IMG/VR virus record: IMGVR_UViG_3300034407_001737
Location: 1-31,296 of that record
DNA length: 31,296 bases
Source: a virus
Strand: one strand, 5' to 3'
Shown piece by piece: positions 3,086 to 31,229 of this stretch. Within the stretch, counting starts at the first letter, position 1. Every line of letters starts with the position of its first letter. A program made the translations under genes and the position numbers. A model generated the notes under the pieces. It was not told where the DNA came from, ran no database searches, and worked only from the letters and a program-made list of their open reading frames with translations.

Positions 3086-3400
3086 TTATTTCTTCTTAGA
3101 ATGCTTTTTAACTATTTTTCTTATTAAAGCTACAGATATATCGTATTTAACAGATAGATTATGATAAATACTCATAGTTCCATTTAGAGGATTCTTATAC
3201 ATTATTAAGAAGTCATTGTAAATAGAAACATCTCTAATAACAGATTCTTTAATAACTCCAGCGTTTATTAAAATAGTTACAGCATGCCTAGCATCCATAG
3301 CTCCATCAACAATAGAGTAAAGAGTCTTAGTTAAAGTGTCTTCCAGTTCGATGCGTTCCTCTTCCAGTAATTTATCACTCTTTTTTTGCATTTTGCGCAT
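3086..3400 (-). CDS. hypothetical small helical protein
   Basis: A 104-aa basic, mostly helical protein. The N-terminal 25 residues are Lys/Glu-rich. The C-terminal stretch SVKYDISVALIRKIVKK looks like a helix-turn-helix of a small DNA-binding protein. It overlaps the end of the upstream gene by 70 nt in another frame, so one of the two starts may be wrong; a later start would remove the overlap but costs the N-terminal helix. It is followed by a terminator. No function is recognised. Confidence 0.55.
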   Translation of the reverse strand: MRKMQKKSDKLLEEERIELEDTLTKTLYSIVDGAMDARHAVTILINAGVIKESVIRDVSIYNDFLIMYKNPLNGTMSIYHNLSVKYDISVALIRKIVKKHSKKK

Positions 3401-3570
3401 GACACAGTAAAATTTGGTTCAACATTTTCTATAAAAAATTCTACAAGGATTTTAAGGCTTATACTGTCAGGTATGATTTTAGCATGTGTTTTATCCACAG
3501 CTTCTTTTATTTTAAACCAGTCCTCCTCAGATAAATCTCTTAAGTTTTGATTAACATTAAAGACTTTCAT
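3331..3570 (-). CDS. hypothetical protein with CxxC motif
   Basis: A 79-aa protein with a Trp- and Lys-containing amphipathic N-terminal half and a CAKC motif near residue 59 followed by KRVINYWKR. Small proteins with a single CxxC followed by a YW-type motif occur in head/tail modules of Bacteroidota phages, which supports a real gene; their role is unknown. Its 3' end overlaps the next gene. Its start lies just beside the leader of the oppositely oriented HNH endonuclease gene. Confidence 0.5.
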   Translation of the reverse strand: MKVFNVNQNLRDLSEEDWFKIKEAVDKTHAKIIPDSISLKILVEFFIENVEPNFTVSCAKCKKRVINYWKRNASNWKTL

Positions 3571-3593
3571 TATGCTAATATAATGATTTTTAC

Positions 3594-3691
3594 TATATTA
3601 GCGAAAGGTACGTGAGAAATACCAAAAAAATATTTTATTAATAGTTAATGGGTGAGCTTTCTATTCTCACGTACTCGCTCACCCATAACTT
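3594..3691 (+). promoter_or_regulatory. pseudoknot-type leader of HNH-AP2 gene
   Basis: Two interleaved inverted repeats precede the endonuclease start. P1 is 11 bp, GTACGTGAGAA (3608-3618) with TTCTCACGTAC (3664-3674). P2 is 10 bp, ATGGGTGAGC (3648-3657) with GCTCACCCAT (3677-3686). The 3' arm of P1 lies in the 19-nt loop of P2, which is the arrangement of an H-type pseudoknot. A degenerate -7 box TATATTAG (3594-3601) lies 6 nt before P1. The gene starts 19 nt after P2. The other HNH gene (29470-29982) has the same layout with unrelated sequence. Structure is seen directly; regulatory function is inferred. Confidence 0.65.
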
Positions 3692-3705
3692 TATTTTATT
3701 ACAAC

Positions 3706-4140
3706 ATGGAGACTTATCCGCAAGAAAGAAATATACTTAGATTAATGAAACAAAGATGTTTAAACGTTAAAAATAAAGATTATAAGTATTACGGTGGCAG
3801 AGGTATTCTTGTTTGCGAAAGGTGGTTAAGTAGCTTTCGCAACTTCCTAGAAGATATGGGTGAAAGACCATCTGAAAACCACTCTATTGATAGGTTAAAC
3901 AATGATAAAGGATACTATAAAGAAAATTGTAGGTGGGCGACAAGGAGTCAACAACAAAGAAATAAAGGCATGATGAGTAATAATAAAAGCGGTGTAAAAG
4001 GTGTTCACCTAAATAAGAATTCTGGTAAGTTTGAAGCATCCATAAGCGTAAGTAATAAAAGAATTTACCTAGGGTCTTTCTTTGACATAAAGTCAGCTGT
4101 AAAAGCTAGAAAGGACGGAGAAGAAAAGTACTGGGGTTAA
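3706..4140 (+). CDS. HNH homing endonuclease with AP2 domain
   Basis: A 144-aa protein and the only gene on the plus strand. The nuclease core carries YYGGRGILVCERW (about residues 30-42), a HSIDRLNNDKGYY segment and NCRWATRSQQQRN, typical of phage HNH-type homing endonucleases. The C-terminal 50 residues (SGVKGVHLNKNSGKFEAS, then RIYLGSF) form an AP2 DNA-binding domain. The ATG at 3706 is preferred: an upstream in-frame ATG at 3652 would translate through the leader pseudoknot. It ends in a 4-nt convergent overlap with the minus gene at 4137. It is a selfish mobile gene and its core is clearly related to the HNH gene at 29470. Confidence 0.85.
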   Translation: METYPQERNILRLMKQRCLNVKNKDYKYYGGRGILVCERWLSSFRNFLEDMGERPSENHSIDRLNNDKGYYKENCRWATRSQQQRNKGMMSNNKSGVKGVHLNKNSGKFEASISVSNKRIYLGSFFDIKSAVKARKDGEEKYWG

Positions 4141-4370
4141 GTCCATTTGTTCTTAGGGCAAGACTCTCCTTCCCACATTACTTTAGAATGTATAGCACAT
4201 TTACATACGCTACATTGAGGAACTCCTTTCTTTGTTTTAAATAATAACTTAAAGTCATTTCTGTAGTTAGGACAAGATTCACAAATAGACAATCTTTCTT
4301 TCTTTATTTTATTAGTTACAATATCACTATCAATATTCTTAACTCTTCCAAATAAATCAGTTAACCACAT
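4137..4370 (-). CDS. small Cys-rich zinc-binding protein
   Basis: A 77-aa protein with CESC (about residue 30), CSVCKC (about 53) and a late SCPKNKW. The clustered Cys plus a HSKVMW segment indicate a small zinc-binding protein of a type common near Bacteroidota phage tail genes (DUF6171-like, by resemblance). It follows the tape measure gene by 49 nt and may help tail or head assembly, but nothing proves this. TATATTTAC lies just before its ATG, close to a -7 box. Its 3' end abuts the invading endonuclease gene. Confidence 0.65.
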   Translation of the reverse strand: MWLTDLFGRVKNIDSDIVTNKIKKERLSICESCPNYRNDFKLLFKTKKGVPQCSVCKCAIHSKVMWEGESCPKNKWT

Positions 4371-29369: not shown

Positions 29370-29398
29370 AAAAAAAGGGTAAAAACTTAATTCTACCC
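29370..29398 (-). terminator. terminator after rusA remnant/HNH region
   Basis: On the minus strand GGGTAGAA (29391-29398) pairs with TTTTACCC (29377-29384) with one G-U pair, around a 6-nt loop, followed by a T run (29370-29376). It would end transcripts from the rusA and HNH genes. Confidence 0.75.
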
Positions 29399-29402
29399 CT
29401 TG

Positions 29403-29422: not shown

Positions 29423-29494
29423 TTATTCAATCGGTATTATATGAAACTCTACTCTAGGATTCTCTTTATCTAAGTGTTTTTTAGCGTGTATTTC
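29423..29494 (-). pseudogene. diverged duplicate of rusA 3' end
   Basis: On the minus strand the frame reads [20 protein letters not shown] and then PIE-stop. The intact rusA gene ends EIHAQKHLDKLNPRIEFSII then PL. The 13-nt agcgtgtatttct is identical in both copies (29483-29495, 30157-30169) while the rest has diverged. It is the remnant left when the HNH gene entered rusA, or was carried with it. The last codons of the HNH gene overlap it in a different frame. Confidence 0.85.
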
Positions 29495-29982
29495 TTTCTT
29501 CTATTATTCGCTTGCTCTTTAGCTGTCGCCCAACGACAGTTACTAGGTTCATAGCTACCGTTTACGTCTATTCTGTCGATAGAGTGTTTTAGCGATGGTT
29601 TTAAACCCATATCTGAAGCAAAGTTATCATAACTATTTAACCATCTGTCGCAAACGGTAATACCACGCCCTCCATAATCATTAAAGCTTTTAGAATTTGG
29701 ATTACTACATCGGGCTTTCATAGTTGCCCAAGTAGAATATAAAGGTTTATATTCTTTATTATGTTTATACCTAATACTACTTTCAGCCTTAACTTTTTCT
29801 TTATTTTTTTGGTATTTTAACCTTCTATTTTCTTTTAAGACTTCTTTGTTTTTATCTCTATATTCAGCACTTTTAGCTTTTTTATGCTCTTTGTTTTTTT
29901 GATAGGCATATTTTCCATAGCACGACTGACAAAAACCTTTACAGTAAACCTTTTTACCGCATCCATTAACTTTACACTTCAT
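29470..29982 (-). CDS. HNH homing endonuclease inserted at rusA
   Basis: A 170-aa protein from the ATG at 29982. Its N-terminal [20 protein letters not shown] is a Cys-rich zinc motif. A Lys-rich linker (about 28-65) follows. The nuclease core (about 85-155) has [27 protein letters not shown] and [10 protein letters not shown], matching the HNH gene at 3706. An in-frame ATG at 30018 would read through a hairpin leader and is rejected. The 3' end overlaps the rusA remnant. It should cut an intact rusA allele and promote its own spread; that target is inferred from the flanks. Confidence 0.88.
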
Positions 29983-29986
29983 AATT

Positions 29987-30065
29987 AAAAAACCCCCTTT
30001 ATCCGTGGTGGTAGACACTTCAAAAGAGGGAATTTATATAAATATTTTTAAAATGTATCTACCAC
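29987..30065 (-). promoter_or_regulatory. pseudoknot-type leader / attenuator of HNH gene
   Basis: On the minus strand P1 is an 11-bp helix, GTGGTAGATAC (30065-30055) with GTGTCTACCAC (30018-30008), one G-U pair. P2 is 8 bp, CCCTCTTT (30030-30023) with AAAGGGGG (30000-29993), one G-U pair, followed by six T (29992-29987). The 3' arm of P1 lies in the P2 loop, giving a pseudoknot layout. P2 plus T run alone is a Rho-independent terminator, so P1 could act as antiterminator. The ATG is 10 nt after P2. The layout matches the leader at 3608-3686. Confidence 0.65.
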
Positions 30066-30075
30066 AATACAGATA

Positions 30076-30105
30076 CAAATATATTAATTATGATATAATT
30101 TACAA
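30076..30105 (-). promoter_or_regulatory. promoter of HNH gene
   Basis: On the minus strand TTTG, 19 nt, TATATTTG (30076-30083), a full match to the Bacteroidota consensus. The -33 box overlaps the rusA stop codon. Transcription would start near 30069, only a few bases before the first pseudoknot arm. Confidence 0.7.
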
Positions 30106-30456
30106 AGGAATTATTGAAAATTCAATACGTGGGTTAAGTTTATCAAGATGCTTTTGAGCGTGTATTTCTAAACAGAGGTTATCATTCTTAATAGCTCCAC
30201 CTTTTTGTAAGCAATCCAATACAACCTTTAAAGCATTATCTAAGTCTGGTCTACGGGAATCATAAAAAACATCTATAACAAATCTAAAATCACCCTCGAT
30301 CATTTCATATTCATAATCAAGTAACTGTAGTTTAAAACTGTTTTCGTAGCTCTTAAGCTTTGCTTGTTTCCCTAGTGAACATTTAGAACCTAGTCTAATT
30401 ACTTTATAGCAGTTGCTCTTAGATGGGCAATTACCTTTAATTGTGAATACTTGCAT
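30100..30456 (-). CDS. rusA: RusA-type Holliday junction resolvase
   Basis: A 118-aa protein, the usual size for RusA. It has SRRPDLDNALKVVLDCLQ with Asp71 and Asp73, and NDN with Asp92, the metal-binding acidic residues that cut Holliday junctions. It resolves recombination or replication intermediates before packaging. The last 22 codons are duplicated downstream of the HNH gene (29423-29494), so this 3' end may be a replacement brought in with that gene. Its start overlaps the upstream stop by 1 nt. Confidence 0.9.
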   Translation of the reverse strand: MQVFTIKGNCPSKSNCYKVIRLGSKCSLGKQAKLKSYENSFKLQLLDYEYEMIEGDFRFVIDVFYDSRRPDLDNALKVVLDCLQKGGAIKNDNLCLEIHAQKHLDKLNPRIEFSIIPL

Positions 30457-30875: not shown

Positions 30876-31229
30876 TTAAAACGGTAAATCATCATCACTA
30901 CCAGCATTCATATCTACAGCTTGTGGAGCTGGTGCTGAGTTGTTACCATCTTCTTTTTGAATAAACCACGCATCTAGGCTATTAAAATATCTATCCTGAC
31001 CTGTTTTAGGGTCATTCCAAGCCCTACCACGTAAGTTAAACTTAACTAATATTCTGTCACCAACTTTTAAACCGTTTAACTTATCACAGTTATCCTGTGT
31101 TAGTTGCATTGCTATATCTTGTGGATATTGGCTAGAGTCATCTGTTATTACAAATTCTCTCTTTTTAAACTTCTCAGTAACTTGTACTGATTCATTGACT
31201 ACTTTTAAAGCCCCTTTTAATTCAAACAT
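30876..31229 (-). CDS. DUF3127-type single-stranded DNA-binding protein
   Basis: A 117-aa protein resembling DUF3127 OB-fold proteins. The FKKREFVITDDSSQYPQDIA segment (about 21-40), KVGDRILVKFNLRGRAW and a final FNSLDAWF strand form the barrel. The C terminus ends SDDDLPF, the acidic tip that SSB proteins use to bind partners. It coats single strands in phage replication and recombination. It is the first complete gene at the right edge and is followed without a gap by the helical gene and rusA. Confidence 0.85.
   Translation of the reverse strand: MFELKGALKVVNESVQVTEKFKKREFVITDDSSQYPQDIAMQLTQDNCDKLNGLKVGDRILVKFNLRGRAWNDPKTGQDRYFNSLDAWFIQKEDGNNSAPAPQAVDMNAGSDDDLPF

Follow-up and report, generated by a model that had tools for sequence, protein, structure and literature searches.

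The two HNH nuclease genes encoded in a 31,296-base virus record with 32% GC (hereinafter, the window) are each preceded by a leader in which two inverted repeats interleave, and the covariation observed in a homologous leader from another virus argues that the leader of the plus-strand gene (leader 1, upstream of HNH1) is a real RNA structure. From predicted transcription start sites, the leaders fold into two hairpins with complementary loops, and comparison with related phages indicates that HNH1 and HNH2 are mobile insertions, probably free-standing homing endonuclease cassettes. The earlier note that drew attention to the repeats overlooked the 5' hairpin (P0), the kissing nature of helix P1 and the insertion of leader and HNH gene together as a mobile cassette. 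The other genes of the window encode phage structural proteins, terminase, RusA and SSB, and the promoter type, the low GC content and the gene complement make Bacteroidota the likely host group. For comparison, 75 phage relatives were gathered via a ClpP-type protein.

Interleaved repeats upstream of two HNH genes

Reading the DNA confirmed the arms, linkers, loops and ATG distances that had been described for leader 1 and for leader 2 (minus strand, upstream of HNH2; Table 1). In both leaders, the arms follow each other in the order P1-5', P2-5', P1-3', P2-3', with P1-P2 linkers of 29 and 24 nt, P2 loops of 19 and 22 nt and P2-to-ATG spacings of 19 and 10 nt in leaders 1 and 2, respectively; leader 2 includes one wobble pair in P1 and one in P2. 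Dinucleotide shuffles equaled or exceeded the observed score of a geometric descriptor of this arrangement in 0/3000 cases for leader 1, 0/3000 for leader 2 and 1/3000 for the homologous leader described in the next section. In a looser free search without the geometry, shuffles reached leader 1 in 0/300 cases and leader 2 in 2/300. When the window was scanned, leader 1 ranked first, and leader 2 scored slightly lower, one point under an unrelated place. In view of these shuffle results and ranks, leader 1 alone is far beyond chance, whereas leader 2 is convincing mainly through its position.

Table 1. Features of the two HNH loci in the window and the helices of the homologous L001 leader
Feature	Positions	Strand	Sequence	Remarks
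HNH1 insertion (promoter, leader 1, HNH-AP2 gene)	about 3571..4136	+		between two minus-strand genes
HNH1 -7 element	3594..3601	+	TATATTAG	5/6 near-invariant positions of TAHHTTTG; predicted +1 at 3606
Leader 1 P0 hairpin	3607..3623	+	GGUA[CGUGAGAAA]UACC	RNA 5' end; in MFE from +1
Leader 1 P1 5' arm	3608..3618	+	GTACGTGAGAA	kissing core 3611-3618, remainder common to P0 stem
Leader 1 A/U-rich linker	3619..3647	+		sequence kept in L001; first bases are the P0 3' strand
Leader 1 P2 5' arm	3648..3657	+	ATGGGTGAGC	
Leader 1 loop segment	3658..3663	+	TTTCTA	identical in window and L001
Leader 1 P1 3' arm	3664..3674	+	TTCTCACGTAC	within P2 loop; kisses P0 loop
Leader 1 P2 3' arm	3677..3686	+	GCTCACCCAT	ends 20 nt before A of ATG
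HNH1 gene, AP2-like C-terminus	3706..4140	+		PHROG HNH E 8e-52; AP2 sub-threshold
Native rusA 3' tail, downstream of HNH2	29423..29495	-		41/47 nt identical to L618
HNH2 gene	29470..29982	-		PHROG HNH E 3e-42
Leader 2 P2 3' arm	29993..30000	-	AAAGGGGG	followed by T6; ends 11 nt before A of ATG
Leader 2 P1 3' arm	30008..30018	-	GTGTCTACCAC	within P2 loop; kissing core UACCAC 30013-30008
Leader 2 P2 5' arm	30023..30030	-	CCCTCTTT	
Leader 2 P0 hairpin	30054..30071	-	UGUAUU[GUGGUA]GAUACA	in MFE from +1
Leader 2 P1 5' arm	30055..30065	-	GTGGTAGATAC	P0 loop plus P0 3' strand
HNH2 promoter	30076..30106	-	TTTG-N19-TATATTTG	predicted +1 at 30071
rusA 3' tail brought by cassette	30100..30157	-	KHLDKLNPRIEFSIIPL	recoded; 31/47 nt identical to L618
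L001 leader P1			ATAGGTGAGA:TCTCACCTAT	
L001 leader P2			AGGTAGGT:ACCTACCT	

A covarying homologue of leader 1

The closest relative of HNH1 in IMG/VR (55% amino acid identity) is encoded in another virus, contig IMGVR_UViG_3300025671_002387 (denoted L001; the same contig as L403), and is preceded, in the same place, by a leader with the same fold. The connecting sequences of leader 1 and the L001 leader are alike (A/T-rich linker, GTTAA, TTTCTATTCTCAC), and the helices are distinguished by seven compensatory pairs (two in P1, four in P2 and one in P0), with neither one-sided changes nor broken pairs in the aligned columns. When the partner strand was slid by 1-3 columns, 0-1 compensatory pairs were left and at most 50% of the cells were paired; a shuffle control on the covariation, which is coarse with two sequences, gave 8/500 and 16/500. 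In particular, base 3608 pairs with both 3622 (in P0) and 3674 (in P1), and all three bases switch in L001 from G-C-C to A-U-U (as DNA and in window positions, 3608 G to A, 3622 C to T and 3674 C to T). The interleaved order, together with the length and position of the helices, leaves little room for chance, and the combination of interleaved order with loop-loop pairing is what one expects from an RNA rather than from simple DNA palindromes.

The covarying L001 leader thus supports the interleaved RNA fold proposed previously. It is a covarying homologue upstream of a related HNH gene, of the kind that the note had suggested looking for, and brings the sequence-related leaders to two (leader 1 and L001). 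In leader 1, a 30-codon frame (3648-3740, plus strand) starts at an ATG within the 5' arm of P2; this frame overlaps the start of HNH1 and is absent from L001.

A 5' hairpin and loop-loop pairing

Folding from the predicted +1 gives the 5' hairpin P0 in addition to P2 in 3/3 leaders (P0 of L001 is UAGAUAG[GUGAGA]UUAUCUA). The P0 loop is complementary, again in all three, to a stretch within the P2 loop, that is, to P1, so that P1 can be read as a kissing (loop-loop) pairing. The kissing core comprises 6-8 bp and may grow to the 10-11 bp P1 by displacing one strand of P0, namely the 5' strand in leader 1 and L001 and the 3' strand in leader 2. P0 and P1 compete for bases; P1 and P2 do not. Taken alone, P0 is modest, with shuffle p values of about 0.02 (leader 1), 0.02 (L001) and 0.012 (leader 2), the last value pertaining to a variant hairpin that has a 10-nt loop and begins ahead of the predicted +1.

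The third loop of leader 1 and L001 measures 2 nt and P1 spans 10-11 bp, a combination that, under standard helix geometry, does not allow the classical coaxial H-type fold. The possible alternatives are a kissing arrangement or a P1 stacked on P2 via the 2-nt junction, in which case the 6-7 nt loop would pass across P1. One 5' base has changed in concert with two different partners, as though both states were maintained, and this lends support to a two-state RNA switch, in which the P0 loop would serve as a toehold on the P2 loop and P0 and P1 would exchange strands; such a switch would travel with mobile HNH genes of phages probably infecting Bacteroidota and would time nuclease translation. 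We propose this switch tentatively and with low confidence.

Relationship of leader 2 to leader 1

Leader 2 is similar to leader 1 in topology, position, promoter distance and gene class. Homology of the two leaders, as implied by the original description, is not supported at the sequence level: a covariance model of two sequences, leader 1 and L001, assigns leader 2 14.5 bits (E 0.95), which is within background, and leader 2 is only the fifth place in the window for that model, below three other or reverse-strand matches. The covariance model is confined to leader 1 and L001, leader 2 having been misplaced against these two by MAFFT. Either fast divergence or convergence is possible. We consider it unlikely that leader 2 is a coincidence, with leader 1 and L001 the only real homologues: such a coincidence would fit the background-level score and the weaker P2 of leader 2, but not its descriptor score (0/3000 shuffles) or the same position and gene class and the similar promoter distance.

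Promoters

The promoter claimed directly upstream of the P1 5' arm in both leaders is supported by consensus prediction. The HNH2 promoter is the sole full -33/-7 match in the window, against 0.24 expected. The -7 box of L001 (TATATTGC) is weak, and the leader 1 box (TATATTAG) is also weaker than that of leader 2. The motif ACTATATTWG is enriched in the window, and TATATTTG lies 18-27 nt upstream of the start in three ordinary genes vs. 94 nt for HNH2. Transcription starts were set by assigning -5 to the final base of the -7 element, the -7 consensus having G at this position (PMC6847099). The +1 sites predicted in this way are 3606 (leader 1), 1877 (L001) and 30071 (leader 2), which places the start of P0 at +1 or +2 in 3/3 leaders.

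A 9-bp perfect inverted repeat at 3574-3602 (GCTAATATA-N11-TATATTAGC) contains a -7-like box on each strand and perhaps represents back-to-back promoters for HNH1 and for the minus-strand gene starting at 3570. Inverted repeats around the promoter or start are also seen in L001 (TATCTATA-N6-TATAGATA) and in leader 2 (TGTATCT-N10-AGATACA).

HNH genes as mobile cassettes

The HNH proteins (144-170 aa) match phage HNH families, and both reading frames end within target DNA. HNH1 is antisense to the flanking structural genes, and its stop codon lies in the target remnant. The HNH1 site is empty in more than 50 relatives (including L543, L560, L559, L562 and L545), where the flanking genes are adjacent or overlapping, which identifies the region at about 3571-4136 as an insertion. 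HNH2 sits in the 3' end of rusA, and its last codons and stop codon read the native rusA remnant in another frame. In the relative L618, rusA is uninterrupted, and the similarity to L618 extends to the DNA beyond the native remnant. The identities of the two rusA tails to L618 (Table 1) indicate that the cassette carried a recoded rusA tail and left the native one behind. Among 735 kb of relatives and added contigs, no HNH genes were found beyond those of L617, which is the same virus as the window, and L001/L403.

The genes flanking HNH1 (3086-4370) show 52-60% amino acid identity to those of the near relative L543, with 79% for the next gene, a divergence that might fit co-conversion around the insertion. 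The gene beside HNH1 is possibly recoded as well, a feature inseparable, at the sequence level, from the general divergence of that gene. A terminator-like hairpin follows the native rusA remnant (29374-29401, minus strand), and a similar sequence follows rusA in L618.

Search for additional leaders

The kissing-hairpin descriptor, which was written after the leaders had been seen, fits 4 of the 862 gene starts in the phage set, three of which are HNH genes (3/3 HNH genes vs. 1/859 other gene starts). Over all fetched starts, it fits 75/6,919 (about 1%), and the best of these are largely in GC-rich DNA. Three sequence-pattern scans of IMG/VR, filtered for the fold, retrieved only L001 among the matches listed. 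The covariance model detected no additional leader in 195 loci with HNH genes or in another 85 loci, mostly relatives, and produced one weak match, without an HNH gene beside it, in 296 Bacteroidota genomes. A blastn search of the leaders against cultured phages returned short chance matches only, and comparison with Rfam gave no gathering-score match for the whole window and chance-level matches only for the three leaders (E up to 5).

Two candidates were rejected: the match of human-gut record L365 to the leader is due to chance, and the HNH locus L069, which is GC-rich and scores high with the descriptor, contains an ordinary terminator-like hairpin. The HNH genes of Polaribacter phage Danklef_2 and of two Phocaeicola phages are separated from the preceding gene by 26-46 nt, which is too short for such a leader.

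Possible functions of the leader

By analogy with known phage systems, the leader may act in cis to throttle or time the translation of the mobile nuclease, an explanation that we prefer and in which we place about even confidence. In this reading, each cassette is self-contained, with a promoter, a structured 5' leader RNA and a small HNH gene, and the leader comprises, in order, the P0 hairpin at the predicted transcription start, the A/U-rich linker and the P2 hairpin with its loop of 19-22 nt. The P0 loop pairs with the P2 loop, and this pairing can grow into the 10-11 bp P1 while displacing one P0 strand. The sequences show the base pairs, their compensatory retention in one homologue, the placement of the fold between promoter and ATG and the insertion of the cassettes; the RNA would, in addition, hold HNH translation in cis at a low level or to a certain time. 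The compact fold stops 10-19 nt short of the start codon, where it abuts the 30S footprint, and the likely host group apparently initiates without Shine-Dalgarno pairing, with tuning by structure near the start.

Phage homing endonucleases, both free-standing and intron-borne, are often held down by leader RNA structure, as in the cases of I-TevI, mobE and segB (PMC3014915, PMC2988022), and in Flavobacterium johnsoniae, which naturally lacks Shine-Dalgarno sequences, structure between about -20 and +20 tunes initiation (PMC6847099). The fold in leader 1 and L001 stops just outside this region, and the start is not directly occluded. No helix covers the ribosome site or the start codon: the last base of P2 lies at -20 in leader 1 and L001, and only in leader 2 does P2 come as near as -11. 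Given these end points, a brake on initiation, acting at the edge of the ribosome site, is the best guess, followed by stabilization of the 5' end. An SSB-like protein is encoded near HNH2 (30876-31229, minus strand; PHROG 4932, E 3e-31) and, by analogy with T4 gp32, is a candidate RNA-binding partner.

A leader that merely stabilizes the 5' end would shield the short, isolated nuclease mRNA from 5'-dependent decay without any regulation. The start of P0 at the predicted +1/+2 in 3/3 leaders and the isolation of the HNH1 mRNA, which is antisense to late genes, are compatible with such protection, but one stable hairpin would suffice for it, and the long loop-loop pairing and the compensatory changes in P1 exceed that need; we regard this possibility as unlikely. 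Transcription attenuation, with P2 and a U-rich stretch terminating transcription and P1/P0 modulating it, appears improbable. The earlier note took P2 of leader 2 to be a terminator and suggested that P1 may control attenuation or translation. U-rich sequence indeed follows P2 in 3/3 leaders, but a T run (T6) directly adjoins P2 only in leader 2, P2 being followed by AAC in leader 1 and by ACTC in L001; the P2 loops of 19-22 nt (22 nt in leader 2) are long for a terminator, and a terminator scan calls none at either leader. Furthermore, P1 and P2 draw on separate bases and are able to form together. The compatibility of P1 and P2, the long loops and the restriction of the direct U run to leader 2 all weaken the case for attenuation.

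The repeats could also be half-sites of a DNA operator bound by a repressor, possibly the HNH protein itself, in the manner of I-TevI, which binds a homing-site-like operator at its own promoter (PMC2988022). There is some resemblance between the half-sites of P1 and those of P2 (GTGAG in leader 1, AGGT in L001), but the 8-11 bp match of each arm is with its own interleaved partner rather than with the other pair, the similarity between leader and empty target is not above that of shuffles (43/300 and 88/300), and P0 and its covariation are left unexplained, which makes an operator quite improbable in our judgment. A guide RNA of the HNH nuclease, comparable to the HEARO/omega RNA beside IscB-type proteins, would account for the presence of a structured RNA immediately before the HNH gene of a mobile element. 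It is nevertheless highly improbable: HNH/AP2-type proteins of 144-170 aa are too small for the IscB type, the leaders match no Rfam family including HEARO, and there is no leader-target similarity. The preferred explanation remains cis-acting control of nuclease translation, about as likely to be right as wrong.

Comparison with known systems

Among the closest parallels are the hairpins of T4-type homing endonuclease genes (I-TevI, I-TevII, I-TevIII, segB and Aeh1 mobE), where, as here, a folded leader directly precedes a mobile endonuclease gene, in some cases with a promoter at the structure, and is shown or thought to limit expression (PMC3014915, PMC2988022). The T4-type structures are single hairpins that sequester the Shine-Dalgarno site, in the case of I-TevI on read-through transcripts (PMC3014915, PMC2988022), whereas the leaders described here consist of two kissing hairpins behind their own (predicted) promoter, with the fold ending before the start region in two of the three, in a phage of a host group that apparently lacks Shine-Dalgarno initiation. 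A pseudoknot-type leader appears to ride with mobile nuclease genes in a phage of hosts that likely dispense with Shine-Dalgarno pairing, where the T4 trick of hiding that site may not be available. In seg43(25) of Aeromonas phage 25, the stable structure preceding the free-standing endonuclease gene also lies directly upstream of the ribosome site without overlapping it, but is a single hairpin rather than two kissing ones (PMC2988022).

The pseudoknot of the T4/T2 gene 32 mRNA is similarly located in the leader and followed by an A/U-rich single strand up to the start; it controls translation of the SSB gene in cis through two coaxial stems bound by gp32 (PMC3014915). The same layout is found here, with a predicted 5' end, but the helices are 8-11 bp long, the first loop is long and there is an extra 5' hairpin. 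HEARO/omega RNAs are, like the present leaders, structured RNAs that adjoin the HNH gene of a mobile element (PMC9755519) and differ in the protein family and in the RNA itself; a guide function is not indicated here.

At about 80 nt, the leader is compact and testable, and the cassettes provide a case of mobile endonucleases carrying their own expression signals. Kissing hairpins in which a short loop is fully paired with a second loop are typified by ColE1 RNAI/RNAII; the pairing proposed here is intramolecular. In the fungal mitochondrial atp6 gene, insertion of a homing endonuclease duplicates the end of the target gene, the incoming element supplying a new end while the old one stays downstream. 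HNH2 in rusA resembles the atp6 case and differs from it in involving a phage, the HNH family and a structured leader, thus representing a clean phage example of a cassette that replaces the 3' end of a gene and leaves the old end behind.
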